Below, in pieces: positions 1,784-22,538 of a stretch of 33,021 nucleotides of DNA. The stretch covers positions 1 to 33,021 of the forward strand of contig JALOPX010000010.1 in NCBI GenBank assembly GCA_025453655.1. Reading direction: 5' to 3'. This DNA comes from Candidatus Krumholzibacteriia bacterium. Its GTDB lineage: Bacteria; Krumholzibacteriota; Krumholzibacteriia; Krumholzibacteriales; Krumholzibacteriaceae. The notes under the pieces are model-generated. The model made no database searches. It saw only the letters and a program-made list of their open reading frames with translations, and was not told where the DNA came from. A program made the position numbers and the translations under genes. How positions within the stretch are numbered: the stretch's first letter is position 1; the number at the start of each line of letters is the position of its first letter.

Positions 1784-1812
1784 TTGACACTACTAACATC
1801 ATGTGATAAAGT
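1784..1812 (+). promoter_or_regulatory. Sigma70-type promoter for the propeller-kinase operon
   Basis: A perfect -35 TTGACA (1784-1789) is followed after 17 nt by TAAAGT (1807-1812), which matches the -10 consensus at four of six positions. Transcription would begin near 1819. A GTG at 1803 could extend the downstream reading frame but falls inside this promoter, which supports the ATG at 1866 as the real start. The rest of 1611-1783 shows no gene or clear terminator. Confidence 0.55.
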
Positions 1813-1865: not shown

Positions 1866-4800
1866 ATGAGATCAGCTCGAAATAAGACGCGCAGTCTCCT
1901 TCTTTTCATGTGCCTCGCGGCAATCCTTTCGTCATTGTCCGGATGTCGGTCTGAAAGGAAGGTCCTGGGCGAACCCGGAACGAATGAACAAGGCTCCGGA
2001 CCGTCGGACACAACCTGCCTATGGATCGACTTCGAGCAGGATACCTGCTGGAAATGGTGTGCTCTTGCCGGCTACAGCGGGATTTTCGATTTCAGCATGG
2101 TCTCAGGGGATGAATACAACCTGAGCAAGGGGTATCTTCAGTTGAGCGTCCCCCCGGGGGAGGAAGCGGCAGGGATATGTTTCGACCTCGGTGAAAACAA
2201 CTTGCAAACCATACCGATAACCATGTCGACCATGGTCGCGTGGAGCTGGTATGTGAACGAGCATCGCGAGGACACGAACGGTCTGTGGATGGTCCTGCGA
2301 TTCAGGGATCTCAGAACCGGCCAGAGGGATGTCGTCAGGACGGTCAGCCTGTGCAACTCCTCGTTCGAGGTTTGTAGCGTTTACTTCGATCCGGACAGGA
2401 CATGGATATACCATAAGGAGTCGGTCTCATCATGCATACACGACCGGTTCAAGCCATTTTCGGCGGGCGACCTGGTCATCGAATCGATCGGGTTCGGAGC
2501 GTCCAGGGCGCCCGGGATGCTGGCGCGAATCGACAATGTCTGGATAGGCGAAGGATATCCGCCTCCGGAAATCAACACTATCGACATCAAGGAGCAGAAT
2601 TCAACGGGCGGTGATCCGCGGCTTGAGGGGTTCTCGTTCGGCCATATCGACGGGGACGAATTTCCGGACCGCGTGGAGATATTCGGAAACAGGCTGGAGA
2701 TCGTCCCGGGCTCGTCCTGCAGGTTGAACGGGGCTTCGGGGAACTCCGCCACGAACGGGCGCGCGGGCGGAGTGGAGAAGGTGATACTGGACCTGAAGAG
2801 ATGGGGAAGCGAACGGGTTCCCGTTTCCGCTTCGATAGTCGATCTCGACGGTGACGGTCAGGACGACATGCTTGTTCATTTCGACGATAAAGGCGGAAAC
2901 AGGTTCTACCGGAACGACATGAGGAGGGGAAAGCTCGAGGATCTCAGCGGTCTCGACGGAGTCCTCGAATACAAGGGGGAGAAATTCTACGGGACGGCTG
3001 AGGCCGACATGGACGGCGACGGAGATATCGATCTTTTCATGATCAATCATATCGATAACAGGGGCCGGTCCGGCGGCGTACGGTTTGTCAGGAACGAAGG
3101 ACGTTCGGGGTGGGCCGACTGGACGGACAGTTCCGGCGTCCTGATGAAAAACGCCTTCGGAGGAACCTTCTCCGACTTCGACTTCGACGGCGACCAGGAT
3201 CTGTTCGTCCCCTACAGGGCCTACGACCTGAACGAATGGCCCGGGGGCCGGCCGTATCTGAACATGAACGACGGCAGCGGCCGGTTCACCTTCGATCCCG
3301 CGAGGATTTCGCTCGGTGACAGTATTCATATCGAAGGAGCGGCGGCGGCCGATTTCGACAACGACGGCGACATGGACATTTACGTCGTTGTGAGGCAGGA
3401 AGGCCTGACGGGCAAAAGTCAGGTTCCCGGGTCCAATGTCATGCTTCTCAACGACGGCAGTGGATTTTTCGCCGAATCGCCGGGGAGCGAGGGCTTCGGA
3501 GAGCCGAGGATGAGCCAGTCAGCCCTCGCGGCGGACTTCGACCAGGACGGCGACGTCGACATCTACGAGATAAACGACCGTAACCATTGTTTCTTTTTCC
3601 GGAACAACGGCGGCGTGTTTGCCGCGGGCGATTCCCTGCACGCCGATTTCATATACAGGGGAAGAGCCGCCGGAGGTCTCGCCGTAGACTACGATTCCGA
3701 CGGCGACATCGATATCATCATTAACGACAAGGATAAGATGGAACCGCAGATTCTCTCGAACGGTTCGGCGAGGGGCGGCTTTCTACAGGTCCGGCTGCGC
3801 GGGATCGAGGGGAACAGAGCGGGGATCGGCGCGAAGGTTTGCGTATATGAAGCCGGTTCGCTCGAGCAGCCCGGGAAGCTCGTTGGATTCAGGGAGATCC
3901 ACTCGGGACAGGGCTTCGGCATGCACGGGCCGCCCGTGGCGCACTTCGGCCTCGGCTCAAGGAGCCATGTCGACCTGCTCGTTGTTTTCCCGGCGGTGAA
4001 TGGAAAGGAGCCGGTGCGGGTCGTGAAACGCGACGTTCCCGCGAATAGTTTCCTGTATATCCCGGGAACGAACAACGCGGCGGCCCGCCTCTGGCATTCA
4101 TGGAAAGCCGCAAGGGCGAGGTATCTTCTGTCGAGCCTGATATTTTCCGTCCCCGGATGGCTGGCCTCGCTGATTCTTTTCGGCGTTCTCTGGTTTACGG
4201 GGATCAACGTGAGGAAAAGATTCGACGGGGCGATCCCGCGGGGCGGCGACATGCGGGGTTCTCTGATGCCGGTCTATTCCATCGCAGCCCCTGCCTCCGC
4301 GGCTCTTCTGATTCTTGCGGCGGCGCTCTTCAGATCGTGGGCCTGGTCCGCGCCCGCCGTCCTCGCGGCGGCGGTGATGGTTGGAGGAAATCATGAAATA
4401 GTCGCAACGACGGCGAGGATCCTCGGTTTCAAACGAGACCGCGAGATGGAGGAGACGCATCTCGTGAAGATGCTCTCGAGGATACTTCATCCGGAGGGAG
4501 AGTTCAGTTTCCTGGAGGAATTCAAGACTGTCGACGCCCCAATAATAAGGAAATACAAGAACGGCATAGGACCCTCGCTAAAGGCGATCGAGAGTTGTAT
4601 TGAAATGCTTTGCAGGGTGGCGGGCGAAGGCAGGAATGCGAGCGAAGCGGAGGAAGCTTTCTCTGATATAAAGGAAACAATCGCGGAGCTTCTTTCCCCG
4701 CCAGGCGAAGGGGAGGACGGGTCATTAAAGGAAATCGGGGCAAGGTTCAAGAAACAAAAAGATCGACTGGACAAGGTTCTCGGAGAGAGCAGGGAAAACC

Positions 4801-5267
4801 TGAGATCCAGATATTTCATCGACTTCAAGAGCGAGTGGGAGAAACTTGCGGGCAGGAGGGACAGGGAACTGGACGAAGCGGGAATTGAATTTTCCTGTGA
4901 TTTCACGGGAGCGGACAATGTAAAGCTGTATCTTTCCTCTGGCGAGTTTCAGGACATCTTCAGCAACCTGCTCACGAATTCGATCTGGGCCGTGTCGGAT
5001 CTTGACGACAAAAGGATAAGGATCGAAGCCCGCACCGACCGCCGTCATCTCAGGCTGAGATGGCTCGATTCGGGATGCGGGATCGCCGCGGAGTATCGGG
5101 AGAGTTTGTTCAAGAATGAGGTAAGCTCCGGTCGGCCTGGCGGAAAAGGCGAGGGATGCGCGATAACCGGCAGGATACTGAACGACAAACAGGGCGAAGC
5201 GTATGTAGACGATGCGCCACAGGGGTGGAGCACATTGATAGTCATTAGGATCGTCAGAACGGGGTGA
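1866..5267 (+). CDS. Predicted lipoprotein-anchored FG-GAP/UnbV propeller sensor fused to a histidine-kinase-type ATPase
   Basis: From the ATG at 1866 this encodes 1133 residues. The N-terminus is basic, then hydrophobic, ending in LSGC, a lipobox-like site. Seven acidic DxDxDG-type calcium-binding motifs begin near residues 262, 326, 381, 437, 496, 557 and 608; their 50-65 residue spacing fits a seven-bladed FG-GAP/VCBS propeller. An ASPIC/UnbV-like module follows (about 640-710), then two or three membrane helices (about 754-780 and 803-843). The cytoplasmic part ends in a GHKL ATPase domain with an N-box (NLLTN, N1034 and N1038), DSGCGI (D1068) and a glycine-rich G2 loop. No HExxNP/HELRTP-type H-box is visible between the membrane and the ATPase domain. 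The next gene encodes a response regulator and overlaps or nearly touches this one. An extracellular ligand-sensing role is inferred; the ligand is unknown. Confidence 0.85.
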   Translation: MRSARNKTRSLLLFMCLAAILSSLSGCRSERKVLGEPGTNEQGSGPSDTTCLWIDFEQDTCWKWCALAGYSGIFDFSMVSGDEYNLSKGYLQLSVPPGEEAAGICFDLGENNLQTIPITMSTMVAWSWYVNEHREDTNGLWMVLRFRDLRTGQRDVVRTVSLCNSSFEVCSVYFDPDRTWIYHKESVSSCIHDRFKPFSAGDLVIESIGFGASRAPGMLARIDNVWIGEGYPPPEINTIDIKEQNSTGGDPRLEGFSFGHIDGDEFPDRVEIFGNRLEIVPGSSCRLNGASGNSATNGRAGGVEKVILDLKRWGSERVPVSASIVDLDGDGQDDMLVHFDDKGGNRFYRNDMRRGKLEDLSGLDGVLEYKGEKFYGTAEADMDGDGDIDLFMINHIDNRGRSGGVRFVRNEGRSGWADWTDSSGVLMKNAFGGTFSDFDFDGDQDLFVPYRAYDLNEWPGGRPYLNMNDGSGRFTFDPARISLGDSIHIEGAAAADFDNDGDMDIYVVVRQEGLTGKSQVPGSNVMLLNDGSGFFAESPGSEGFGEPRMSQSALAADFDQDGDVDIYEINDRNHCFFFRNNGGVFAAGDSLHADFIYRGRAAGGLAVDYDSDGDIDIIINDKDKMEPQILSNGSARGGFLQVRLRGIEGNRAGIGAKVCVYEAGSLEQPGKLVGFREIHSGQGFGMHGPPVAHFGLGSRSHVDLLVVFPAVNGKEPVRVVKRDVPANSFLYIPGTNNAAARLWHSWKAARARYLLSSLIFSVPGWLASLILFGVLWFTGINVRKRFDGAIPRGGDMRGSLMPVYSIAAPASAALLILAAALFRSWAWSAPAVLAAAVMVGGNHEIVATTARILGFKRDREMEETHLVKMLSRILHPEGEFSFLEEFKTVDAPIIRKYKNGIGPSLKAIESCIEMLCRVAGEGRNASEAEEAFSDIKETIAELLSPPGEGEDGSLKEIGARFKKQKDRLDKVLGESRENLRSRYFIDFKSEWEKLAGRRDRELDEAGIEFSCDFTGADNVKLYLSSGEFQDIFSNLLTNSIWAVSDLDDKRIRIEARTDRRHLRLRWLDSGCGIAAEYRESLFKNEVSSGRPGGKGEGCAITGRILNDKQGEAYVDDAPQGWSTLIVIRIVRTG

Positions 5268-5275
5268 GAAGCTGT

Positions 5276-6703
5276 ATGAATAAATACACAGGCGGCGCGA
5301 ATTCAGGGAAACCGGTCGTTCTTGTAGTGGACGACGAGCTGTCCTTCATCCAGCGCGCGACGAGGTTGCTCGGCGAAGAATATCATCTGGAAGCGGCAAA
5401 CAGCTGGCCGAAGGCATTGGAGCTTCTGGGGAATCGGCCCGTTTCCGTTCTGCTTCTCGACTATCAGATGAGGGATGGGAAGGACGGCATAGAGATTATC
5501 GGCGAGATAAGGAAAACGGGATCGCAGGCCCTGGCGATAATCCTGATTTCAAAGTACATGGACGACAGCCTCGCCCTCACCGGGCTGGAGGCGGGCGCCG
5601 ATCACTGCATGGCAAAGTCCACCGACGACGACCTGATGAGACGCGAGATATCGGGAGCGATAAGGCGAAATTACGAGAAGAGAAAATTGCTCGTGCAGGG
5701 CATGGAAGAGCATAATTTGGTCATGCCGTCATTCAGATCGAAGAACATGGGCATTCTGTTGGAGCAGATCGCGCGATTCATCAATACGAACGAAAATATT
5801 CTCATCACGGGAGAACGCGGGAGCGGCAAGGGGGTGCTGGCGAGGTGGATTCATTACAAAAGCGCGAGGTCGGGAGAGATCCTCGCCGACATAAATATTC
5901 CTGCTCTTAACGAGGGCACGTTTACCGGAGAGATGTTCGGTTGGGAGAAGGATGCGCATAACCACGCGGACGAAATGAAACCGGGGCTTCTGGAACTGGC
6001 CGACAAGGGAACGCTTATCCTCGACGAGATCGGCGACTTGAGGATGGATCTTCAAGCGAAACTGCTCGGTATTCTCGAAAAGAAACCGTACATGCGGATG
6101 GGCGGCCAGAAGTCGATTCCTTTCGACGTTCGGTTTATCGCGGTGACGAACAAACAGTGCCTCGAGGAGCAGGCGCGGCAGGGGCGTTTTCGCGCGGACC
6201 TATTCGACAGGCTCAAGACATGCCATATCCACGTGCCGTCTCTGAGGGAGAGGAAAGAGGATATACCGTTTATTGCGGAAGAAATGCTCAAAAAATTCAG
6301 GCAGGAATACAACAGGCCTGAGCTGGAAGGATTAGATGATTCGCTGACCGAGAGGATGATGGAATATTCCTGGCCCGGAAACATCAGGGACCTCGAAATC
6401 TGGATCAAATCCGGAGTGATGCATGCCCATGGCGATAAGGTCACCCTGACCGATGTGCAAAAACAGGTGAGAACGGAGGAGGGAGAGCCGAACCGGTTTC
6501 CGTTCGAAAAGGACTGGTACTCGCTGCCGCTTGCCGAAGCGACCGACCGGGCGCAAAAACTTCTCGTAGAGCGGGCGCTGGTGGATTCGCGCGGAAAGGT
6601 GGCCGAAGCGGCGAAAAGGCTGGGTGTGCATCGCGTCAACCTTTACAGGGTGTGCGAGAGGCTGGGAATCGACATTGATCAATTCAAGATAAGCGAAAAA
6701 TAA
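5276..6703 (+). CDS. NtrC-like response regulator with degenerate GAFTGA loop
   Basis: This 475-residue protein has three domains. The receiver (about 12-130) has the acidic pair D19-D20, phospho-acceptor D62 in LLLDYQM, and the conserved lysine in MAKS. The AAA+ domain has a Walker A GERGSGKG (179-186), Walker B LILDEIGD (about 247-254) and the arginine-finger segment RFRADLFDRL (about 304-313). A Fis-type helix-turn-helix occupies the last ~45 residues (AEAAKRLGVHRVNLYR). The sigma54-contacting GAFTGA loop is replaced by DAHNHA at 226-231 while the flanking MFGWEK is kept. Regulators lacking this motif, such as TyrR or Rhodobacter capsulatus NtrC, do not use sigma54, so the same is inferred here. 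ATG 5276 is preferred; an alternative GTG at 5264 overlaps the kinase stop. It is presumably the partner of the upstream kinase. Confidence 0.9.
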   Translation: MNKYTGGANSGKPVVLVVDDELSFIQRATRLLGEEYHLEAANSWPKALELLGNRPVSVLLLDYQMRDGKDGIEIIGEIRKTGSQALAIILISKYMDDSLALTGLEAGADHCMAKSTDDDLMRREISGAIRRNYEKRKLLVQGMEEHNLVMPSFRSKNMGILLEQIARFINTNENILITGERGSGKGVLARWIHYKSARSGEILADINIPALNEGTFTGEMFGWEKDAHNHADEMKPGLLELADKGTLILDEIGDLRMDLQAKLLGILEKKPYMRMGGQKSIPFDVRFIAVTNKQCLEEQARQGRFRADLFDRLKTCHIHVPSLRERKEDIPFIAEEMLKKFRQEYNRPELEGLDDSLTERMMEYSWPGNIRDLEIWIKSGVMHAHGDKVTLTDVQKQVRTEEGEPNRFPFEKDWYSLPLAEATDRAQKLLVERALVDSRGKVAEAAKRLGVHRVNLYRVCERLGIDIDQFKISEK

Positions 6704-7523: not shown

Positions 7524-8213
7524 ATGGCCCACGAACATATAATGGTCGTCGACGACGAGGAGGACATCCTCGAGCTTGTCGGCTACAACCTGGAACGAAT
7601 CGGGTACAAGGTGACGAGGGTCGACTCGGGGGAGGACGCCGTCAGGATCGCGAGGGACAAGGAGCCGGACCTGATCCTCCTCGATCTTATGCTCCCCGGC
7701 ATAGACGGCCTCGAGGTGTGCAGGCTGCTCAAGCAGGATAACAGGACCTCCTCGATACCGATAATAATGCTCACCGCCAGGGGGGACGAAGCCGACGTCG
7801 TCGCGGGTCTCGAGGTAGGGGCGGACGACTATGTCACCAAGCCCTTCAGCCCCAGGGTGATGCTGGCGAGGGTGAAAACGGTGCTGAGAAGGGCCGGGGA
7901 CGCCCAGCCGAAGAAGGACGACGTGATTTCCATCAAGGGTCTCGTGATCCATCCGGGGAGGCACGAGGTCTCGATCAAGGGAAAGCCGGTAAATCTCACC
8001 TCCACCGAGTTCCTACTTCTCCACCAGCTCGCGAGAAGGGCCGGATGGGTATTCACCAGGCAGCAGCTGATCGACGCGGCTCGGGGCGAGGATTACCCCG
8101 TGACGGACCGCTCGGTCGACGTCCACATCGTCGGACTGAGGAAGAAACTCGGCGCCTTCGGCGAGATGATCGAAACGGTGCGCGGCGTGGGTTACAGGTT
8201 CAGGGAGAAATGA
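7524..8213 (+). CDS. phoB: Phosphate-regulon response regulator PhoB
   Basis: This 229-residue OmpR/PhoB-class regulator has a receiver domain with D10-D11, phospho-acceptor D54 in LLLDLMLPG, a threonine in MLTARG and the lysine of VTKPF. The C-terminal winged helix includes LTSTEFLLL and the recognition-helix segment TDRSVDVHIVGLRKKL, ending in VRGVGYRF, all typical of PhoB. An AGGAAAGGCGAG stretch just upstream supplies the ribosome site. It lies behind its own Pho-box array, 4 nt ahead of phoR, and upstream of porin and pst genes with the same boxes. PhoB activates these genes under phosphate limitation. Confidence 0.95.
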   Translation: MAHEHIMVVDDEEDILELVGYNLERIGYKVTRVDSGEDAVRIARDKEPDLILLDLMLPGIDGLEVCRLLKQDNRTSSIPIIMLTARGDEADVVAGLEVGADDYVTKPFSPRVMLARVKTVLRRAGDAQPKKDDVISIKGLVIHPGRHEVSIKGKPVNLTSTEFLLLHQLARRAGWVFTRQQLIDAARGEDYPVTDRSVDVHIVGLRKKLGAFGEMIETVRGVGYRFREK

Positions 8214-8217
8214 CGCG

Positions 8218-10026
8218 ATGAAGAAACTGCGCATAATATGGCATCTTTTTCCATGGTACATTCTCATCATATTCGCATCGCTTTTCGCGGTTTCGTGGTT
8301 CGTTTCCAGGTATACGCGCGATTTTCACAGGGAAAATATCGGCAGGAATCTCGAGAGCATGGCGAGGCTCGTCGATTTCGACCTCGAATCGGGACTGCGC
8401 GGCATATCCAATTCGAGGATGGACTCGATCTGCGTCGAACTCCACGCGCGGTCCGGGATCAGGGTGACCGTAGTCGGAAAGGACGGCAGGGTGGCCGGCG
8501 ATTCGCTGGAAGAATCGGCGGAGATGGAAAACCACGGCGACCGCCCCGAAATCATCAAGGCTCTCTCCGGCGGCACGGGAGTCTCCGAGAGGGTCAGCGG
8601 CACGTTGAAAAGGCCGTTCCTCTACGTCGCCGTTCCCCTGTATGATCAGGACGGCCTCGCGGGAGCCGTGAGAACCTCGATTTCAATGGCGGACCTGAAC
8701 GCGGAGCTGCGCAGGATACAGACGCGCATCATAATGACGGGCGCCGCTGTGGCAATTCTGTCGGTGCTCGTGAGCATCCTGATATCGCGCAGGATAAGCG
8801 CCCCGCTCAACGAGATGAAGAAGGGGATCAGCCATTTCGCCGGGGACGACCTCGAATATCGAATTCCGGTCTACGGCCTGGCCGAAGTCGGGGACCTCGC
8901 CGGAGTCATAAATGAAATGGCCTCGCGCCTCCAGGACAGGATCGATACCGTCGAGCTTCAGCGAAGCGAACAGGAGGCTGTTTTCGCGGCGATGCCCGGA
9001 GGGATCCTCGTCGTGGACGACGAGGAGAGGATCGTAAGGATGAATCCCGGCGCCTCGGGCCTTATCGGGCTTTCCGGCGCTGAAGCGGCGGGGAAAATGA
9101 TCCAGGAGGCCGTTCGAAACCTGCAACTCCAGAAATTCGTCGCCCGGACCCTCCGTTCGGAGGAACCCATTGAGGCGGATTTGACGCTGAGGTCGGAATC
9201 CGGGGACGTGTTCATTCAGGCTCACGGCGTGAAGCTTCGGAGCGACAACGGCAACAGGGGAAAAGGCGCCGTGATCGTCCTCAACGACGTCACCAGGATA
9301 AAAAGGCTGGAGAACGTCAGGCGCGAATTTGTCGCCAACGTCTCGCACGAGCTCAGGACCCCCATAACGGCGATAAAGGGATTCGTCGAGACGCTGATGG
9401 ACGGCGGGATCGACAGCCCCGGAGAGGCGAAGAAATTTCTCGGCATCATCGACCGTCAGGCCGACAGGATGAACGGGATCGTGCGCGACCTTCTCATCCT
9501 CGCCCAGGTGGAAAGGGAAGGGGAGGCCGGCGACATCCGGTTCGAGAAGGGGAATATCAGGAAGATACTCGAAGAAGCAAGGCTGATAACCTCCCCGCAG
9601 GCCGCGGAGAGAAGGATAATCGTAAGCGTCGACTGCGACGAAAAGCTCGAGGCGAGGGTCAATTCCGCCCTCCTAGAACAGGCCGTGATCAATCTCGTGG
9701 AGAACGCGATCAAGTACAGCGACGAGGGGGGCCTGGTAAGGATTAACGCCTCCGTCGAAAACGGATTCCTCGAAGTGGACGTGATCGACCAGGGATGCGG
9801 CATCGCCCCCGAGAACCTTCCGAGGATCTTCGAAAGATTTTTCAGGATCGACAAGGCACGAAGCCGGAAACTGGGCGGGACTGGGCTCGGCCTGTCAATC
9901 GTAAAACACATCGCGGCCGTTCACGGAGGTTCCGTCCACGCGGAGAGCGAACCGGGCAGGGGAAGCGCCTTCAGGCTGCGCATCCCTGTTGATTCGCAAG
10001 GGTTAAGCGCCCAAACGAAAAACTAA
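8218..10026 (+). CDS. phoR: Phosphate-regulon sensor histidine kinase PhoR
   Basis: The 602-residue protein has a first membrane helix at about 11-32, an extracytoplasmic domain of about 140 residues, a second helix near 173-193, a HAMP linker, a PAS domain (about 245-360), HisKA with H377 in VSHELRTPITAIKGF, and an HATPase domain with NLVENAIKYS, DQGCGI and GTGLGLSIVKH. The large extracytoplasmic domain is unlike E. coli PhoR, which has almost none, but is common in PhoR/PhoPR-type kinases of other phyla. It begins 4 nt after phoB, so the two are cotranscribed. Its stop codon lies inside the Pho-box array of the next gene. Signal input through PhoU and the Pst transporter is inferred from family knowledge. 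Confidence 0.93.
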   Translation: MKKLRIIWHLFPWYILIIFASLFAVSWFVSRYTRDFHRENIGRNLESMARLVDFDLESGLRGISNSRMDSICVELHARSGIRVTVVGKDGRVAGDSLEESAEMENHGDRPEIIKALSGGTGVSERVSGTLKRPFLYVAVPLYDQDGLAGAVRTSISMADLNAELRRIQTRIIMTGAAVAILSVLVSILISRRISAPLNEMKKGISHFAGDDLEYRIPVYGLAEVGDLAGVINEMASRLQDRIDTVELQRSEQEAVFAAMPGGILVVDDEERIVRMNPGASGLIGLSGAEAAGKMIQEAVRNLQLQKFVARTLRSEEPIEADLTLRSESGDVFIQAHGVKLRSDNGNRGKGAVIVLNDVTRIKRLENVRREFVANVSHELRTPITAIKGFVETLMDGGIDSPGEAKKFLGIIDRQADRMNGIVRDLLILAQVEREGEAGDIRFEKGNIRKILEEARLITSPQAAERRIIVSVDCDEKLEARVNSALLEQAVINLVENAIKYSDEGGLVRINASVENGFLEVDVIDQGCGIAPENLPRIFERFFRIDKARSRKLGGTGLGLSIVKHIAAVHGGSVHAESEPGRGSAFRLRIPVDSQGLSAQTKN

Positions 10027-10078
10027 CTTTACCCTCATAATCCCCTCATCGCAAATCCCTATACTTTTCTTCGATAAT
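10022..10078 (+). promoter_or_regulatory. Pho-box array and -10 for the porin gene
   Basis: Heptamers at 11-bp spacing are ACTAACT (10022), CCTCATA (10033), CCTCATC (10044) and ATCCCTA (10055); the two middle ones are strongest. A good -10, GATAAT (10073-10078), lies 11 nt beyond. The array starts at the phoR stop codon. It indicates PhoB-dependent transcription of the porin gene. Confidence 0.6.
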
Positions 10079-10201
10079 CGAAGTCTGTCTTGACGCGGCC
10101 TGCCGTTCGGGAGGTGAAAGTAACGGACCGCCAGGCAAAAAGAGCCGGATTGCATCAAGGGATTCTGTTGAAGTGAACACAAGCGTGAAAGGATGAAAGA
10201 A

Positions 10202-11290
10202 ATGAAAAGAAGCATGGTAATAGCGGTCGTACTGACCTCGCTCCTGCCCGGAATGGCCAGGGCCGGGAACTGGTACGACAAGGTCAAGATAAGCGGGGAT
10301 TTCAGGCATCGCCACGAGCTGATACAGGACGAATCGAAGGACGCCGACAGGACCCGCTGGCGCATTCGCGCGAGGCTCGGCATAGCCGCCGATATAAGCG
10401 AGGAGATGTCAGTTTCGTTTCGCCTGGTTTCAGGCTCGGACGATCCGGTATCCACGAACCAGACCCTGACCGACGGGTTCACGACGAAGGGGATAGGGAT
10501 CGACCTCGCCTGCTTCGACTACCATCCGTCGGCGGTCAAGGGGATGCACCTGATCGGCGGCAAGATGAATCTGCCCTTCGCAACCGTTCAGGGCACCGAA
10601 CTTATCTGGGACGGCGATCTCTCGCCGGAGGGAGTCGCCGCGACGTTGTCCAGGGAGATCAACGACAAGGTCGGGGTATCCCTCGGATCGGGCGTATTCT
10701 ATGTTCAGGAAAGATCCTCGGAGGACGATTCGTGGATGGCGGGATTCCAGGGCGTAGTCACTGTAAAGCCCGGCGAGAAGACCCATGTGATCGCCGGCGG
10801 CGGATACTACGACTACCAGAACACTGAAAACTTCCCGACCTTCTACGACGATGAGGATCCCTTCGGCAACTCCGTCAATGTCGACGGAGAGTACGCGACC
10901 GACTACAACCAGTTCGAGATTCTCGGAGAGATAGGGATGAAGGCCGAGAAGATCTCGGCCGCCGTTTACGGGAATTTCGTGAAAAACACCGCAGCCGACA
11001 GTCTCGATACGGGCTATCTCTTCGGCGGGATGATCCGCCACGGCAAGGGTAAAAAGTCGGTAAAGGTCAACGTCAACTACCGCGAGGTGGAGAATGACGC
11101 GGTCGTCGGGGCGTTCACCGACTCCGATTTCCGCAACGGCGGCACGGACGGCAAAGGGCTGGAACTCGGTTTGTCGTACGGGCTTGCGGAAAAGGTCGAC
11201 CTTGCGGTCAGTTATTTCCTCAACCAGAAGGGGATCGAGGAAGAGGTCGATTTCAAGAGACTGCAGATCGATCTTGCGGTAAAATTCTAG
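10202..11290 (+). CDS. Putative porin of the Pho regulon
   Basis: The 362-residue product has a signal peptide (about 1-21, ending ARA before GNWYD) and then alternating polar/hydrophobic beta strands ending in a terminal phenylalanine (LAVKF), the classic outer-membrane barrel signature. The segment RTRWRIRARLGIAADI and the following VSTNQTLTDGF resemble the 'putative porin' family (Porin_5-like). The start at 10202 is chosen because GAAAGGA (10187-10193) is 8 nt upstream; the ATG at 10193 would overlap that site. Its position between phoR and pstS behind a Pho box suggests phosphate or polyphosphate uptake, by analogy with OprP or PhoE. Specificity cannot be read from the sequence. Confidence 0.85.
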   Translation: MKRSMVIAVVLTSLLPGMARAGNWYDKVKISGDFRHRHELIQDESKDADRTRWRIRARLGIAADISEEMSVSFRLVSGSDDPVSTNQTLTDGFTTKGIGIDLACFDYHPSAVKGMHLIGGKMNLPFATVQGTELIWDGDLSPEGVAATLSREINDKVGVSLGSGVFYVQERSSEDDSWMAGFQGVVTVKPGEKTHVIAGGGYYDYQNTENFPTFYDDEDPFGNSVNVDGEYATDYNQFEILGEIGMKAEKISAAVYGNFVKNTAADSLDTGYLFGGMIRHGKGKKSVKVNVNYREVENDAVVGAFTDSDFRNGGTDGKGLELGLSYGLAEKVDLAVSYFLNQKGIEEEVDFKRLQIDLAVKF

Positions 11291-11310
11291 ACGCGTAAAG
11301 CGGGAAGAGC

Positions 11311-11350
11311 CCTAACGAAATCCTAACAATTTCCTGATAAAAACCTCACA
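11311..11350 (+). promoter_or_regulatory. Four-unit Pho-box array upstream of pstS
   Basis: This is the clearest array of the window: CCTAACG (11311), CCTAACA (11322), CCTGATA (11333) and CCTCACA (11344), with AT-only 4-nt spacers aaat, attt and aaaa. The 11-bp spacing is exact. No clear -10 follows. It should drive the pst operon under phosphate limitation. Confidence 0.8.
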
Positions 11351-11425
11351 TTCGGGAGGGAAATTGAAGGAAAGGTCGAGGGCCAGGAAAGCCGGAGAAA
11401 ACCGGCGATAAAAGGAGAAAACAAA

Positions 11426-12283
11426 ATGAAATCATTACTGAAATCACTGTTCAGGTTTTCGTTCCTCATGACGGCGCTAGCGATGTCGGCCGCGATAATG
11501 GCGGGGCCGGCAATCACGGCGGAGACGATAGTAATCGACGGCTCGACGACGGTGGGCCCGATCGCAAAGGCCTTTGCCGAGTATTACATGTCCCTTCACA
11601 AGGACGTCAATATCACGGTGAGCGAATCGGGCAGCGGAAACGGCGCGAAAAGCATCGTCAACGGGACATGCGACATCGCAGATATGTCCCGTTTCATGAA
11701 GCCGACTGAATTCGCCGCCGCAGTGGAAAAGGGACGCATGCCGGTTGCCCATGTGGTGGCGGTGGACGGAATCGCGATGATAGTGAACCCGGCCAACCCG
11801 GTCAAGGCGCTCACCGTCGAACAGGTTCGCGGCATCTACACCGGCGCGATAAGGAACTGGAAGGAAATCGGCGGGCCGGACGTTGCGATCGTCAGGATAA
11901 GCCGCGACACAAACAGCGGGACATACGAGACGTTCGAGAGTCTCGTAATGAACAAGGAAAAGATCCATGAAGGCGTCGAGTATGTCGGTAGCAACGGCGC
12001 GATCCGCCAGAGGGTGCAGAGCACGCCGGCGGCCATAGGGTACGTGGGGCTCGGTTTCGTCGATCGCAGCGTGAAGGCGCTCGATATAAACGGCGTCATG
12101 CCGGAACGCAACACGGTGGCTTCGGGCAAGTATCCGATCGCGCGGCCTCTTTTCATGTTCACGAACGGATACCCGGAGCTCGGCTCGCACCTTCACGCCT
12201 TCGTCACGCTCTACCTGACGGAGCGCGGGCAGGAAATCGTCGAGGAGATAGGTTTCATTCCGGTGACGAATTACCGGAAGTAA
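11426..12283 (+). CDS. pstS: Phosphate ABC transporter substrate-binding protein PstS
   Basis: The 285-residue protein has a signal peptide (about 1-31) and then the phosphate-binding fold. Visible ligand segments are DGSTTVGPI near the start of the mature protein, SGSGNGAKSIVNGTCDIADMSR, and SRDTNSGTYETF, which correspond to the loops that hold phosphate in PstS. AAGGAG lies 7 nt upstream of the ATG. It is the first gene of the pst operon, preceded by a four-unit Pho box and followed by a hairpin. It captures periplasmic phosphate and delivers it to PstCA. Confidence 0.95.
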   Translation: MKSLLKSLFRFSFLMTALAMSAAIMAGPAITAETIVIDGSTTVGPIAKAFAEYYMSLHKDVNITVSESGSGNGAKSIVNGTCDIADMSRFMKPTEFAAAVEKGRMPVAHVVAVDGIAMIVNPANPVKALTVEQVRGIYTGAIRNWKEIGGPDVAIVRISRDTNSGTYETFESLVMNKEKIHEGVEYVGSNGAIRQRVQSTPAAIGYVGLGFVDRSVKALDINGVMPERNTVASGKYPIARPLFMFTNGYPELGSHLHAFVTLYLTERGQEIVEEIGFIPVTNYRK

Positions 12284-12285
12284 TC

Positions 12286-12306
12286 GCTCCGGGGCCGGCC
12301 CGGAGC
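12286..12306 (+). other. Stem-loop in the pstS-pstC gap
   Basis: GCTCCGGG (12286-12293) and CCCGGAGC (12299-12306) form a perfect 8-bp stem with a 5-nt loop, 3 nt after the pstS stop and with no U-run. Hairpins at this place are known to protect mRNA of binding-protein genes so that more of it is made than of the permeases. That role is inferred here. Confidence 0.5.
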
Positions 12307-12335
12307 CGGGCGCCGCGGGCCGGCGGAAAGTGTTT

Positions 12336-13493
12336 ATGGCCGAAAGCAACGACAGGATTGAAAGCGGGAATATCGGGAGCCGGCTTCTCATGGGCGCCAG
12401 GGAGAGGCGCATGAGGTTGATCGGCTCCCGGATCGGCCATTCCGTGCTCATGGCAATCGCCTCGAGTTCGCTCATAGCTTTGCTCTTCATCTTCTACTTC
12501 ATCATCCGGGACGCCGTGCCCTTTTTCAGGATCGAGGGGTTCAGGGAGTTCTTTTTCAGCGCCTCCTGGTACCCTTCAAGGGAGAATCCCGAGTTCGGCG
12601 CCATGGCCATATTCATGGGAAGCGCACTGGTGACGCTCGGAGCTGTCGCTTTTTCCGTTCCCGTAGGCATCATGGCCTCGCTCTGCCTCAGCGACATCCT
12701 GCCCTTTTCGATCAGGCAGGTGGCAAAGCCGGTGATTGAGATGCTCGCGGCGATCCCGTCCGTCGTCTACGGATTCTTCGCCCTGATCGTTTTCGCACCG
12801 GCGCTTCAGCGGAGCGGAGGATCGATCCTCGCCGCCGGCGCGATGATAATACTCGTCCCGATTGCCGCTATCGCAGTCGTCGTGGGCGGGGATCTTCTGG
12901 GAAATCGTCTCGCGAAAAGGGGCGGCAAAGCCGCCCGCCCTCTCGTGACCGCATCCCTGGGGCTGATCGCGTTTTTCCTTCTTTACAGGATTTACGGCGT
13001 CATCGGCGGCCTTGTGATCGAGAGCGGAACGAACGCCCTCAACGCCTCGATCATTCTCGGCATCATGGCCCTGCCCACGATCGTGAGCGTGTCGGAGGAC
13101 GCCCTGAACTCGGCAGGCAGGGAGCTGCGCGAGGGAAGTTACGCTCTCGGGGCGACAAGGGCCGAAACACTGCTCAAGGTCGTCATGCCGGCGGCGAAAA
13201 GCGGGATTACGGCGGCCGTCATCCTCGGCGTGATGAGGGCGATCGGGGAGACGATGGTCGTGTGGATGGCATCCGGAAACGCCGCGAGGATACCGTCGCC
13301 CTGGTTCGACCTGCTCGAGCCGGTCAGGACCCTGACCGCCACGATCGCGGGGGACATGGGCGAGGCGGATCACGTCACCGGATCGGCGAGATATCATGTT
13401 CTGTTCGCGATGGCGGCGAGCCTTCTGGCGATCGCCTTCGTATCGAATCTGATAAGCGAGATAATGGTCAGAAGATCCAGAAAGGGGGCCTGA
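12336..13493 (+). CDS. pstC: Phosphate ABC transporter permease PstC
   Basis: The 385-residue inner-membrane protein has multiple hydrophobic helices and the ABC-permease EAA loop EGSYALGATRAETLLKVVMPAAKSG near residue 265, which contacts PstB. The AIPSVVYGFFALIVFAP segment is typical of PstC. It is longer than the usual ~310 residues because of extra hydrophobic segments at about residues 165-225. ATG 12336 is chosen because GGAAAG (12325-12330) lies 5 nt before it; the GTG at 12330 would overlap this site. It ends 5 nt before pstA. Confidence 0.93.
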   Translation: MAESNDRIESGNIGSRLLMGARERRMRLIGSRIGHSVLMAIASSSLIALLFIFYFIIRDAVPFFRIEGFREFFFSASWYPSRENPEFGAMAIFMGSALVTLGAVAFSVPVGIMASLCLSDILPFSIRQVAKPVIEMLAAIPSVVYGFFALIVFAPALQRSGGSILAAGAMIILVPIAAIAVVVGGDLLGNRLAKRGGKAARPLVTASLGLIAFFLLYRIYGVIGGLVIESGTNALNASIILGIMALPTIVSVSEDALNSAGRELREGSYALGATRAETLLKVVMPAAKSGITAAVILGVMRAIGETMVVWMASGNAARIPSPWFDLLEPVRTLTATIAGDMGEADHVTGSARYHVLFAMAASLLAIAFVSNLISEIMVRRSRKGA

Positions 13494-13498
13494 GGGGG

Positions 13499-14845
13499 AT
13501 GGAAGTCGGGACGCGCAGGATCATGGACAAATCGTTCTCCTCGGTGGGGATCTTCGCGATCGTCCTCATGGCGGTCTCTCTCGTCATCCTTCTCCAGCCC
13601 GTCATCATGAGGGGAATCGGGGCTTTCGCGTTCAGGGGGACGGTCGAATTCAGGGAGATGATGCTTCATCAATTCGGGCGCGGCGACGAAGACAAAATAC
13701 TCATCGAGACGGAAGCGGCGGAGGCCGCGCGGAGACCGGTCTACGAACTTGTCGAAGCCTTCGAAATCGAGTTGCAGGAAGCCGATTCCGAATTCAGGTC
13801 GAAATACCGCTCCCAATTCAGGGAGTTGAAGGGCAGGATTGAAGATCTGCTCGGTCCCGCCGGCGCCGACCCGGGCGGGATTCTCCCCAGGAAAAGGTAC
13901 GGGCAGACCCGCTGGGACCGCGCGGAGAAGAAGCTTCACGACATATTGTTCGTCGAAGGGTACGACCATTCCGATCCATCCAGGATGGGCGTCAGGATAT
14001 TCACTCCCCGCGTCGATGATTTCCGGGGGACCTCGCTCGAGCCTCTTTTCGGCATTCTGGAAAGGGACGCCGAAAAGATGCTGAAACCGAAGCCGACCCT
14101 GTACTGGCGGTTTTTCTTCGACGAATCAATCGACTCCCATTTCTTCGGCGGAATATGGCCCGAGATGCTGGGGACCTTTTATCTTTCCCTCGGGGCGATG
14201 CTCTTCGCCATACCGTTCGGGATAATCACGGCGATATATCTTGCCGAGTACTCGGGAACGGGAAGGTTCGTCAGCCTGCTGAGGACCTGCATAAGCTCTC
14301 TCGCGGGGGTGCCGAGCATAGTCTTCGGGCTGTTCGGCCTCGCTTTTTTCATAAACACAGTCCACGTTTCCGATTCGAAGAGCGTTCTGGCGGGATCGCT
14401 CACGCTCGCGCTTTTGATATTGCCGACGATCATCAGGGCGTCCGAGGAGGCCATACTGGCGGTTCCAGGGGGGTACAAGGAGGCGTCGATGAGCGTCGGG
14501 GCGAGCAAATGGCGCACGATCACCACGGTAATTCTTCCCGCCGCGATGCCCGGCATCCTTACGAGCATGATAATAAGCCTCGGAAGGGCGGCCGGGGAGA
14601 CGGCCCCGATAATATTCACCGCGGCGGTGAGCGTCGGGAAACCGCTCGGGCTCATGCAGGTCTTCAATCAGCCGACGCCGGCCCTGCCCTGGAACATATA
14701 CAATCTCGCGACGGAGCACGAAGCCGTCGACGAGATCCGACACGTGCAGTACGGAATGGTATTCACCCTCGTCCTGATGGTGCTGATGCTGAATCTCGCC
14801 GCCATCCTGATAAGAGCGAGGATAACGAAGAGATTGAGAGGTTGA
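13499..14845 (+). CDS. pstA: Phosphate ABC transporter permease PstA with a large N-terminal insert
   Basis: This 448-residue protein is much longer than common PstA (about 280-300). The first helix is at about 14-35. The core then starts near residue 218 ([18 protein letters not shown]) and includes the EAA-type loop [29 protein letters not shown] and the conserved [10 protein letters not shown]. Between them lie about 175 mostly charged, helical residues rich in Glu, Arg and Lys, expected on the periplasmic side. The ATG follows GGGG, 5 nt after pstC. A reading frame extends further upstream into pstC, but it has no ribosome site. It pairs with PstC to form the phosphate channel. Confidence 0.92.
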
Positions 14846-14849
14846 TTCG

Positions 14850-15623
14850 ATGGTGGAATATCCCGGTAAAAAGGACCTGATCGCCGCCGAGGGCTTCTCA
14901 GTATTTTACGGATCGAACGAAGCCGTGAAGAAGGTCACGCTCGAGATTCCCGAGGGGCTGGTGACCTCGATCATCGGCCCGAGCGGATGCGGCAAGAGCA
15001 CCTTCCTGAGGGCGGTGAACAGGATGAACGACCTGATACCGCGATGCAGGACGGAAGGTGCGCTGAGGCTCGACGGACAGGACCTCAACGCGCAGGGAGT
15101 CGACGTGGTGATGCTCAGGAAGAGCGTCGGAATGGTATTTCAGAAGCCGAACCCTTTTCCCAAGAGCATCTTCGACAACATCGCGTTCGGGCCGAGAATC
15201 CACGGCGTGAGGGACCGTTCGAAGCTCGCCGTGATTGTGGAAAAGAGCCTGACCCAGGCCGCCCTCTGGGACGAGGTGAAGGACAGGCTCGGGGACAACG
15301 CCCTCGGGCTCTCGGGGGGGCAGCAGCAGAGGCTTTGCATTGCCCGGGCCATCGCCGTGAAACCGAGCGTCCTTCTGATGGACGAGCCGGCGTCGGCCCT
15401 CGATCCCGCTTCGACGTCGAGAATCGAGGATCTCATTGCGGAACTTCGCGGGAAATACACGATATTGATCGTCACGCACAACATGCAGCAGGCGGCGAGG
15501 GTATCGGACCTGACTGCTTTCTTCTACGAGGGGAACCTGATAGAATTCGGCGAGACGGGCGGAATATTCACGAAGCCGCGCGAAAAACGCACGGAAGATT
15601 ACATTACTGGACGATTCGGATGA
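14850..15623 (+). CDS. pstB: Phosphate ABC transporter ATP-binding protein PstB
   Basis: The 257-residue ATPase has Walker [10 protein letters not shown] (43-51), Q-loop in [16 protein letters not shown], the signature [16 protein letters not shown], Walker [14 protein letters not shown] and the H-loop IVTHNMQQA. The PNPFP motif and the FNPR-like C-terminus are diagnostic of PstB. The start is 4 nt after pstA with GAGAGG just upstream. It powers phosphate import through PstCA and, by family knowledge, works with PhoU to signal phosphate status to PhoR. Confidence 0.96.
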
Positions 15624-16381: not shown

Positions 16382-17770
16382 TCACCTGAGAAGAACGAGT
16401 TTCCCTGAGCTCGCGGCATCTTCCGACGAGAAACGCAGGAAATACACTCCGGAACCCGAGGGGCTTCCCCAGTCATTCGCGCCGTCCCATGACGCCCTGT
16501 AATTTCCCGGGCCGTGAGGCCCGTCGATCAGGGTTCTGATCTTCCGGCCCGCCGCGTCGTATATCTCCAGGCGAACCCTTCCCGCCGACGCCACCGAGTA
16601 TTCTATCGTCGTGGAGGGATTGAACGGGTTCGGGAATATCGCGCCGATCCCCGCGAAAGCGGGGACCTCGGAATCCGTGACACCGGGGACGCTGAAGCAG
16701 ATGTGGTAGGGGGGAAGGCCTGTGTCGACCGGCCCTTCGGTGATCTCCGAGTCGTCGGAGGTGTCGTAGATCCTGATGCCCGGGTCGAGGACGGTCTGGT
16801 CGGCGAGAAAGAGCTCTCCCGACGGCGCTATTCCGATATCGTTGATCACCCATGCGCCCGGCGCGTAAATCGTCGCGATCTTCATCCCGGAAGCCCGATC
16901 GAAGCTGACGAGCTCGGTGAAGAAACTCGAATTGGCGACCACCGCGTATCCTTTCCCGCCGCCGCTTAAATCGAAGTCGAATATGTCGCCTCCCGCGGCG
17001 GCTTCGGTGAGAAGGAACCCCTCGGAAGCGAGCGTGGCCGGATTTACGATCTCCACCCCCCCGTCATTGACGGCCCACCAGCCGACGCACGAAACGAAGA
17101 GCCGCTCCGAGGCCTCGTCGTACAGGATGTCGGAGTACGGGTTGGCTCCCTGAAGGCGTATCGCCTGAATTCCCGGGGTCGAGGGGTCGGCGTCGACGAG
17201 CGAGTCCGTTTCGCAATCGACCACCGCCACGTAGCTGTCCCCCACCGGCCCCCACCAGTAATTCCTGTCGACCCGCTGTATCGTGACGAAAAGATGATCG
17301 TCGACAACGCGCAGCCTGCTGTTCTCGCAGAGCCCGTCGCCGTCCGCGAAAGCTGAAAGATCGATCGTGCCGAGCTGCGCTCCTGTGACCGTGTTCATGA
17401 TCAGAAGATGGTTGGCGTCGTAAAGCGTGATGTAAGCCTTCGCCTCGTCGACGAAGGCGATGTCCTGCGGGTTGGTGCCGTTTCCGGTCGAGAACTGCCG
17501 GAGGGTGGAGAATCCGGCCGCGGGATCGAGTATCTGGATGTTGTCGCCGTTCTCCCTGTTCACGACGTAGACGAGGCCGGCGTGCCACCGGGAGATCGCG
17601 TCGCTGTGGATCGAAGCGGCGTCGATCTGCGTCGTCCACGAGCCGTCGAACCTTATGACGGCGGAGGAGCCGGTTTCGTAGTCCGTGGTCGTCACGAAGG
17701 CGAACTCGGCGGCCCCCGACGCCGCCGGGACGAACAGGGCCGCCAGCAACATTCTCTTTAGATTCGACAT
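16382..17770 (-). CDS. Secreted beta-propeller with FlgD-type C-terminal domain, BtuG-like candidate
   Basis: The product is 462 residues. A signal peptide (about 1-19, ending SGA) precedes a region of about 350 residues with repeated short strands typical of YVTN/YncE-type beta-propellers (for example VVNRENGDNIQILDP, DILYDEASERLFVS). The last ~85 residues start at IFPNPFNPSTTIEYSV and end in GVYFLRFSSED...KLVLLR, a FlgD-type domain often linked to surface sorting in FCB bacteria. AGGAGGA lies 7 nt before the ATG at 17770; an upstream ATG at 17791 has no better site. The gene begins 17 nt after the BtuB-like gene and shares its riboswitch. In Bacteroides, BtuG is a propeller that binds B12 and caps BtuB, so a similar job is inferred from position and fold class, not sequence identity. 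Confidence 0.75.
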   Translation of the reverse strand: MSNLKRMLLAALFVPAASGAAEFAFVTTTDYETGSSAVIRFDGSWTTQIDAASIHSDAISRWHAGLVYVVNRENGDNIQILDPAAGFSTLRQFSTGNGTNPQDIAFVDEAKAYITLYDANHLLIMNTVTGAQLGTIDLSAFADGDGLCENSRLRVVDDHLFVTIQRVDRNYWWGPVGDSYVAVVDCETDSLVDADPSTPGIQAIRLQGANPYSDILYDEASERLFVSCVGWWAVNDGGVEIVNPATLASEGFLLTEAAAGGDIFDFDLSGGGKGYAVVANSSFFTELVSFDRASGMKIATIYAPGAWVINDIGIAPSGELFLADQTVLDPGIRIYDTSDDSEITEGPVDTGLPPYHICFSVPGVTDSEVPAFAGIGAIFPNPFNPSTTIEYSVASAGRVRLEIYDAAGRKIRTLIDGPHGPGNYRASWDGANDWGSPSGSGVYFLRFSSEDAASSGKLVLLR

Positions 17771-17787
17771 CTGCCATTCCTCCTGTT

Positions 17788-19878
17788 TCATATTTCAACC
17801 CTCATCGATGCCGAGAAGCTTCTTCCGGGAAGCGGGAATCCGCTCACGTCGCTCGCCCTTTCATCGCCGAGATTGTATCCTTCGATGGTCAGGGACAATC
17901 CCTCCGCGAACGGTTTCAGCACGAGACTCAGATTATGAATCGCCCGGGCTTCGACCGTTTTTTGATTCGCCCTGTCGAGATGGTTGGAGCCGATGAAGCA
18001 AAGCTCGTATCCGGCGCGCCAGCGGCGCGCCCCGTAATCGATGGACATCGAGGCCTGATGCTCCGGCCTTCCGGGGAGCGCGTTCCCGTTGTAGTATGGG
18101 ATCGGGCCGGTGTCGCGGCTGTCGAGCCGGCAGTAATTCCCCGAGAATGTGAGCGCGCGGCGGAGCGTCCCGGACCATGACAGCTCGATCCCCCTGATCA
18201 CCGACGCTCCGATGTTCGACGGCTTCACCGTCGACTGGGAGTTGGGAAAGAAAAGAATCAGATCCTCGACCTCGTTGTGAATATAGACCGCCTCCAGAAA
18301 GATCGAGGAGAGCGCCCCGGCCTCGCGGATCGCGACCACAGCTCCGATGTCCCGGTTTTCCCCCGACTCCGGCTCAAGCGAACTGTCGCCGGTCACCGAG
18401 CCGAGATTCCCGAACATCTCGAAAAAGGTCGGCATCCTGTAGTAAAGCCCCCAGTTGCCCTTTATCGTGACGAAGGGGGAGGGTTGGATCCGGAATCCGG
18501 CGCCGGGAGTGTGCATCTCCCCTGTCCTGAGCCCCTGGGGAGCGGGGGGGAGCCACGGCAGGACAGGCGGGTCGTAGAATTCGCTGGCGTACCATTCCGA
18601 CCTGTGGTTCGCCGACAATACGACCTTGTCTCCGATTGTGAAAATGTCTGCGCCAGCCGCCAGCGTGGTGGAATTTCTTTTCCTGTCTGGACCGCTGCTG
18701 TACGACGGCAGCCGGGACACAGGGCTGAACAATTCCCTCCGGTGTTCCAGAAAAATTTCCATGGAAATGGGCAGCCGGGGCGGATACAGCTTCAATCTGA
18801 CGTTCCCTCCGTCGGAGATGATCCTGTTGTCCGTCATCTGGCGCGCGAGGTTTATGTCCCCTCCCGGATCCTCGAACTTTTCGGCGGTCCACGAGTGAAA
18901 AAGGGTGATGTCCGCGTGGGCCGTTCCCTTCAGGATGGGGACCGGTTTCGCCTTGAGGTAGGTGATCCGCCTCCGCCGTTCGAGCCTTGCGCGGGTCGAC
19001 TGGTTCGCCCCGATACCGGGCACCCCGCCTTCGCGAGAGAAACCGTCGTGATCGATCGAGAAGGCGCTGAACCCGGGCACGTCGATCCCGAGCCTGCCGG
19101 TGAAATTCCACTTTGAATAATCGTTGTTCTCCCTTGCGGCCGTTTCGTCGTCGAGGCTGTTTTCCGGCGTCGCGTTGTCGTCGAGGAAGTTGAAATCGCC
19201 CGACGACCTGTCGTATCCTCCGAAGCCGTTGAACCTGAAGGCGCCCGCCCCGGCGCGCGCCCAAAGCGAGCATCCCCGCGTGCCGAACGAGCCCGCCGAA
19301 GCTCCGGCGCCGAGCCCCGCGAATTTACCGCCCTCGCCTGCCCCCGGGGCATTTTTGGAAACGAGATTCACGGTGCCTCCGATCGAAGACGCTCCGAACC
19401 CGGTCGGGCTGAAACCGCGGTAAATCTCTATCCTGCGGATATCGCCGAGGGATATGTCGGCGAGATTCGTCATCCCCGACCAGGCGTCGTTCAGCGGGAC
19501 GCCGTCCAGGTAGAACTGGACCTGCGTCGACGAAGAGCCTCTTATCGACATCGTCGCGAAACCGCCGAGGCCGCCGTACTGCCTCACCGAGACCCCGGTC
19601 GATCTCGAAAGAATCGAGGCGGCGTCCCGCCCGGCGTCCCTCTCCCCGTCGATTTCGATGAGCCCTACGAATCCGGAACGGTTGTAGATTTCGACATCCG
19701 GCGTGGGGCGAATCCCTTCGACGACGATCTCGGGGCCGATGAACAGGGTGTCGAGAATGGCGGTCTTCCCTTCGGTTTTTCCTGCGTTTTTCGTCTCTTC
19801 CGCGGCGGGAAGAACGGCGGCGAAAGTCGATGTCGCCGCAAGAGCCGCCGCGAAAATGACGGCGTTCGCGAAACGCAT
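17788..19878 (-). CDS. btuB: TonB-dependent cobalamin receptor, BtuB-like
   Basis: This is a 696-residue outer-membrane receptor. A signal peptide (about 1-26) is followed by a plug domain with DAASILSRSTGVSVRQYGG, MSIRGSSSTQVQFYLDGVPLND and RRIEIYRGFSPTGFGASSIGGTVNL, then a barrel of about 530 residues with TonB-receptor features such as PEHQASMSIDYG. A TonB box candidate, EIVVEG, lies just before the plug. ATG 19878 is preferred because GGAG sits 8 nt upstream of it; ATG 19890 is an alternative. A cobalamin riboswitch and terminator precede it, which identifies the likely substrate as cobalamin or a precursor. The downstream propeller gene is in the same unit. No btuCDF genes are in the window. 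Confidence 0.9.
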   Translation of the reverse strand: MRFANAVIFAAALAATSTFAAVLPAAEETKNAGKTEGKTAILDTLFIGPEIVVEGIRPTPDVEIYNRSGFVGLIEIDGERDAGRDAASILSRSTGVSVRQYGGLGGFATMSIRGSSSTQVQFYLDGVPLNDAWSGMTNLADISLGDIRRIEIYRGFSPTGFGASSIGGTVNLVSKNAPGAGEGGKFAGLGAGASAGSFGTRGCSLWARAGAGAFRFNGFGGYDRSSGDFNFLDDNATPENSLDDETAARENNDYSKWNFTGRLGIDVPGFSAFSIDHDGFSREGGVPGIGANQSTRARLERRRRITYLKAKPVPILKGTAHADITLFHSWTAEKFEDPGGDINLARQMTDNRIISDGGNVRLKLYPPRLPISMEIFLEHRRELFSPVSRLPSYSSGPDRKRNSTTLAAGADIFTIGDKVVLSANHRSEWYASEFYDPPVLPWLPPAPQGLRTGEMHTPGAGFRIQPSPFVTIKGNWGLYYRMPTFFEMFGNLGSVTGDSSLEPESGENRDIGAVVAIREAGALSSIFLEAVYIHNEVEDLILFFPNSQSTVKPSNIGASVIRGIELSWSGTLRRALTFSGNYCRLDSRDTGPIPYYNGNALPGRPEHQASMSIDYGARRWRAGYELCFIGSNHLDRANQKTVEARAIHNLSLVLKPFAEGLSLTIEGYNLGDERASDVSGFPLPGRSFSASMRVEI

Positions 19879-19980
19879 CTTTATCTCCATTCCCGGGGCT
19901 TGCGCGCCGCGGGCCGGCCGATGTTGGAGGACCCCCTGTCATCGTTCGGGAAAAGAGACTGAAATCGCGCGGAGGGGCAT

Positions 19981-22530: not shown

Positions 22531-22538
22531 CGCGCTCC

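Follow-up and report, generated by a model that had tools for sequence, protein, structure and literature searches.

The stretch of DNA analysed here, which we call the window, spans 33,021 nucleotides of a Candidatus Krumholzibacteriia contig and encodes a membrane protein in which a propeller-type ectodomain precedes a kinase-like ATPase domain. The locus raises the question of whether this protein could act as a two-component sensor kinase and, if so, which residue would accept the phosphate. An earlier note on this DNA had placed a UnbV/ASPIC module, membrane helices, and a GHKL ATPase in a single protein next to a response regulator. This arrangement is borne out by Pfam, hydropathy, and AlphaFold2 (AF2) models for the kinase and by Pfam for the regulator (Table 1). 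The kinase reading frame matches FG-GAP_3 (E 1.5e-22), UnbV_ASPIC, and HATPase_c (E 3.7e-9, residues 1028–1126). The scan that returned the promoter candidate upstream of the gene is weak, with 4 sites in the region and 2.7 expected from shuffles.

Table 1. Coordinates of the kinase gene, its predicted parts, and the adjoining regulator in the window
Feature	Position	Strand	Basis and details
Sigma-70-like promoter candidate, extended -10	1784..1812	+	Consensus scan, 10/12; TTGACA-17-TAAAGT
Propeller-UnbV sensor kinase gene	1866..5267	+	ORF and Pfam; ATG 1866, 1,133 aa
Lipoprotein-type signal peptide	1866..1946	+	Sequence; lipobox LSGC with Cys27
N-terminal beta-rich domain, residues about 50–250	2013..2615	+	Kept in orthologs; AF2 strands
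FG-GAP/integrin-type beta-propeller, seven repeats	2628..3800	+	Pfam, motif positions, Foldseek
UnbV/ASPIC domain, residues 653–708	3822..3989	+	Pfam E 1e-6; found in 7/9 ortholog-alignment rows
Transmembrane region, three predicted helices (about 746–788, 801–821, 825–841)	4101..4388	+	Hydropathy, AF2 at low confidence
Extended helical phosphotransfer (DHp-like) region, residues 844–981	4395..4808	+	AF2
H875 codon, proposed phospho-acceptor	4488..4490	+	Invariance; LSxxxH875xE877xx[FY]xFL
HATPase_c (CA) domain	4947..5243	+	Pfam; N-box N1034/N1038, D1068xG1070xG1072, G1093xG1095xG1097
Response regulator, REC + sigma-54 AAA + Fis HTH	5264..6703	+	Pfam; directly downstream of kinase

The signal peptide and the N-terminal domain are absent from the earlier note. 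A cysteine closes the hydrophobic stretch in all five rows with an intact N-terminus, of which only four also satisfy the strict lipobox pattern. The strands of the N-terminal domain were predicted with an AF2 pLDDT of about 70–85 over most of its length, and the window sequence of this domain matches no Pfam family and has nothing in the PDB below E 0.2. The propeller had been described as seven DxDxDG motifs at near-regular spacing. The seven repeats stand, with a spacing of 51–64 residues, but only six motifs are strict (residues 326, 381, 437, 496, 557, and 608), and the repeat at about residue 262 contains only the degenerate form DGDEFPD. CRTAC1, an extracellular protein of animals, has no kinase. 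In a Foldseek search with the full-length AF2 model, which is weak (pLDDT 59, with low confidence in the propeller and membrane region), it was the best PDB match (9etn, E 1e-12), followed by kinase cores. As in CRTAC1 and other ASPIC-UnbV proteins, the FG-GAP propeller is followed directly by UnbV according to Pfam and to Foldseek on the low-confidence propeller model, whereas the window protein adds membrane helices and a kinase.

The kinase part is placed in the cytoplasm because basic residues, in the loop 780–799 and in a stretch beyond the third membrane helix, lie on the expected side of the three predicted membrane helices. Modelled from a 22-row alignment, the cytoplasmic part reached a mean AF2 pLDDT of 88. 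A long helix (residues 845–874) runs on from the membrane region and has H875 at its end; it is followed by short helices 882–888 and 891–897, by helices 902–919, 923–943, and 951–981, and then by the CA domain. The claim that the ATP-binding residues are kept holds, since N1038, D1068, G1070, G1072, G1093, G1095, and G1097 are invariant columns and the ATP-binding motifs are intact. HATPase_c was also found in every ortholog row that covers its region.

Three histidines, H843, H865, and H875, lie between the membrane and the ATPase domain. The observation that none of them has a canonical H-box context was correct, but it overlooked the invariance of H875 in the orthologs and the wider family. 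H875 is present in 7/7 orthologs covering the site, within the motif L866xxxxS871xxxH875xE877xx[FY]xF882L883. H843 and H865 were rejected as phospho-sites, as they are not kept by the orthologs. Alignments of diverse members, first with 22 and then with 26 rows, leave no invariant position in the phosphotransfer region other than H875; the remaining invariant positions are N, D, and G in the CA domain. Across Krumholzibacteriia the column is histidine in 51/51 distinct rows (the runner-up column reaches 95%), including 28/28 rows that the profile had not seen, and in a second phylum it is histidine in all 23 distinct sequences covering the site. The motif of the wider family is LLxxLxxxxH, mostly ending in HG, and that of the window subfamily is LSxxxHxExx[FY]xFL. 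Because an alignment could force such invariance, the gap-free pattern [LMIV]xxx[LMIVF]xxxxH was also run; without alignment, it finds the same histidine 253–306 residues from the C-terminus in 25/26 sequences. H875 is thus a conserved candidate phospho-histidine in all members examined. By itself, the invariance could also be compatible with a structural or metal-binding role.

Whether the region around H875 is an ordinary phosphotransfer domain was addressed by comparison with canonical kinases. A clear HisKA match had been set beforehand as the result that would overturn the claim of a missing H-box, and none was obtained. Pfam detected no HisKA in the orthologs, also when the threshold for the cytoplasmic part was relaxed to E<=10, and no HisKA-type family among 22 scanned members at thresholds from E<=0.1 to 10. 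The phosphotransfer region gave no HisKA or kinase match against Pfam, NCBIfam, and PDB sequence profiles, and the proposed domain has no Pfam model. The same Pfam library identified HisKA with an E of 1.8e-21 in a PhoR-like kinase of the window, and the negative result therefore does not reflect poor sensitivity to ordinary kinases. The distance from the histidine to the N-box asparagine is 158–168 residues in the window family and 174–190 in a second tier of more distant relatives, compared with 110–120 in the controls, which were ten canonical kinases and two further ORFs from searches of the same genomes. Set against a HisKA-type kinase, the protein shares the N-box and G boxes of the HATPase_c domain and lacks the HisKA/DHp match and the canonical H-box context and spacing. 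A phosphate-accepting histidine is nevertheless probably present, in an unusual and strictly conserved motif, and the suggestion of an unrecognised phosphotransfer site survives as a candidate: a single invariant histidine in a non-canonical motif with no HisKA-type Pfam model.

These comparisons also bear on the possibility that H875 is a normal H-box histidine, too diverged for Pfam, in a HisKA kinase with approximately 50 extra residues inserted in the DHp hairpin. Foldseek groups the cytoplasmic model with HK853, CpxA, and ZraS (E 2e-10, TM about 0.45 for the monomer model), and a profile–profile comparison with the canonical kinase set shows that the CA domain is clearly homologous to that of canonical kinases (E 6e-34). 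The absence of a match in the 22 scanned members, with a library that recognises the PhoR-like kinase, and the long distance to the N-box argue against such drift, as does a tree of the CA domain only, in which the propeller kinases split from canonical kinases with support of 100/98. We consider this explanation unlikely, although it deserves to be kept in view; it overlaps with the preferred one in assigning the same function and differs from it on the novelty of the domain. In the profile comparison, the canonical HEIRNP is aligned near residue 927, a position without histidine in the family, and the alignment does not reach H875. Because the canonical H-box aligns there and not at H875, the geometry of the kinase may differ from that of known kinases. 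A still more tentative proposal is that the helix carrying H875 is outside the DHp hairpin, that the hairpin adjoining the CA domain has lost its histidine, and that a separate helical segment close to the membrane is the site of phosphotransfer. If true, a family dedicated to integrin-like propeller sensors would use a phosphotransfer geometry that no solved kinase shows.

The regulator starts either at GTG 5264, overlapping the stop codon of the kinase, or at ATG 5276. A survey of genomes for the same domain order and a paired regulator, as the earlier note had proposed, found an adjacent response regulator at 7/7 subfamily loci, six of which are ortholog loci with a downstream flank where a regulator of the same type comes directly after the kinase. 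The phospho-acceptor aspartate (codon 5459–5461) and the lysine are invariant in the paired regulators. In the window regulator the GAFTGA loop has degenerated to DAHNHA, and it varies among those of the orthologs (GSHTQA, GIHDHA, GAYTGA, GSFTGA, GAFTSA, and GAADGA), which makes the promoter type of the regulator uncertain; judging from this loop, the sigma-54 contact may be altered in the genome of the window. No sigma-54 -24/-12 site was found within the window with one mismatch allowed. Most Krumholzibacteriia relatives beyond the window subfamily have no adjacent response regulator, and His–Asp transfer in them is therefore only putative. A link of the regulator to defence was rejected, since its PADLOC matches, to RtcR models, cover the AAA/HTH part only.

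The missing canonical H-box, the many family members that have no adjacent response regulator, and the degenerate GAFTGA loop would suit a GHKL-ATPase sensor that does not phosphorylate itself, in which H875 has a structural role and control of the regulator comes from direct contact or a different kinase. We regard this as improbable given the invariant histidine, the intact ATP boxes, and the REC aspartate and lysine that are invariant in the paired regulators. The same features, together with the adjacency of the regulator, point to ordinary His–Asp phosphotransfer and speak against the idea, raised previously, that the kinase acts by another route.

Other genes of the window surround the pair. 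Upstream of the kinase, positions 3–1610 encode a C1-type peptidase, which runs off the end of the contig, and a secreted protein with a metallo-beta-lactamase fold; both also adjoin the kinase in loci L049 and L050, and the peptidase in L054 and L055. Positions 7524–15623 encode a PhoB/PhoR-like pair with a canonical HisKA, a putative porin, and an ABC transporter (two permease genes and an ATPase gene), which together look like a phosphate-uptake (Pho/Pst) cluster. At 16382–19890, a TonB-dependent receptor adjoins a protein that combines FlgD-Ig with a C-terminal sorting tail of the Por type. Two large proteins, of 745 and 834 aa, are encoded at 20293–25043, and neither has a Pfam match at E<=1e-4.

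The orthologs comprise five other complete or near-complete and three partial sequences with identities of 32–48%, and 24% for one fragment. They share the domain order of the window protein and come from two families of its taxonomic order. The draft genome that contains the window is broken into 199 contigs, a circumstance under which a chance fusion, an assembly artefact, or a decaying gene in one metagenome-assembled genome might be suspected. The architecture and gene order are repeated in orthologs of the two families, on independent contigs and with intact reading frames, and this reading, to which we give practically no weight, is already refuted by them. A profile built from the cytoplasmic part identified the second tier, kinases of approximately 800 residues from the same phylum; a Pfam scan of 15 of them found both the FG-GAP propeller and HATPase_c in every one and HisKA in none. 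The profile of the helical region alone gave 51 matches in 33 of 80 genomes of this phylum. In one genome outside the class (G288), two tandem family members adjoin a sigma-54 regulator; the family is present in 18/20 genomes of that second phylum, and DxDxDG repeats occur in all its near-full-length members. Propeller kinases also come in pairs (L141, L142, L176; L184, L188, L191), either in tandem or, in the second phylum, next to each other on opposite strands. Two samples of genomes from outside the two phyla, one of about 300 and one of 366, gave no family match with ten candidates scored per genome, and because of this scoring and a possible overlap of the two samples the family may be wider. 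The results support the view that the propeller kinases are a family across two phyla and not one odd protein. The split in the CA-only tree is consistent with a single origin of the family, short of proof.

We therefore favour, with a probability of about 0.72 and on the strength of sequence comparisons and predicted structure, a two-component sensor histidine kinase in which H875 would be phosphorylated, within a divergent and extended membrane-proximal domain, and would pass its phosphate to the adjacent response regulator. The periplasmic part, probably lipid-anchored and consisting of the N-terminal beta domain, the calcium-type FG-GAP propeller, and UnbV, would bind an extracellular ligand or partner; calcium binding by DxDxDG-type motifs of this kind is known (PMC3123361). 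The signal would pass through the three membrane helices into the long predicted helix that ends at H875. The CA domain, which has the motifs for binding ATP, would phosphorylate H875, as its invariance suggests. Gene pairing and the invariant Asp and Lys suggest that the phosphate would then move to the aspartate of the REC domain of the sigma-54-type activator, which, once phosphorylated, would switch transcription.

Canonical HisKA/HATPase_c kinases with NtrC-type regulators, such as ZraS/ZraR and AtoS/AtoC, share with the window pair the membrane sensor, the GHKL N, G1, and G2 boxes, and the adjacent sigma-54 AAA response regulator. They differ in having a HisKA match, an HExxxP-type H-box, and the shorter distance to the N-box, whereas the histidine of the window kinase is near the membrane, at the end of a helix linked to the transmembrane region. 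Bacteroidetes hybrid two-component systems, in which Reg_prop propellers and a YYY domain precede a canonical kinase (PMC3243724), resemble it in the succession of a large periplasmic beta-propeller, a small membrane-side domain, a membrane helix, and a kinase. In the window protein, however, the propeller is of the FG-GAP/VCBS type, UnbV takes the place of YYY, HisKA is absent, and the regulator is a separate gene of the sigma-54 type; a Pfam scan at E<=1 found no Reg_prop, YYY, fused receiver, or AraC HTH. The window kinase would work like the hybrid systems and is not a member of them. Bacterial integrin-type propellers surveyed previously have seven repeats with the calcium motif Dx[DN]xDG and no transmembrane helix, and kinases are not mentioned (PMC3192720); the window protein is similar in its repeats and motif and differs in its membrane helices and kinase. 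A search for FG-GAP, histidine kinase, and beta-propeller returned no paper in the open-access literature covered, and within this scope the proposal of an undescribed sensor class stands. From its sequences, we rate as new a putative sensor histidine kinase family that combines an unmodelled phosphotransfer domain with an integrin/CRTAC1-like sensor.

The analysis defines a sensor-kinase family that domain libraries now record only as 'FG-GAP + HATPase_c', and supplies a candidate phospho-site for which a single mutation would suffice as a test. It also reveals a blind spot, as censuses based on HisKA would miss such kinases or label them 'H-less'. In this family, propellers of the integrin/CRTAC1 type would serve as bacterial membrane receptors.
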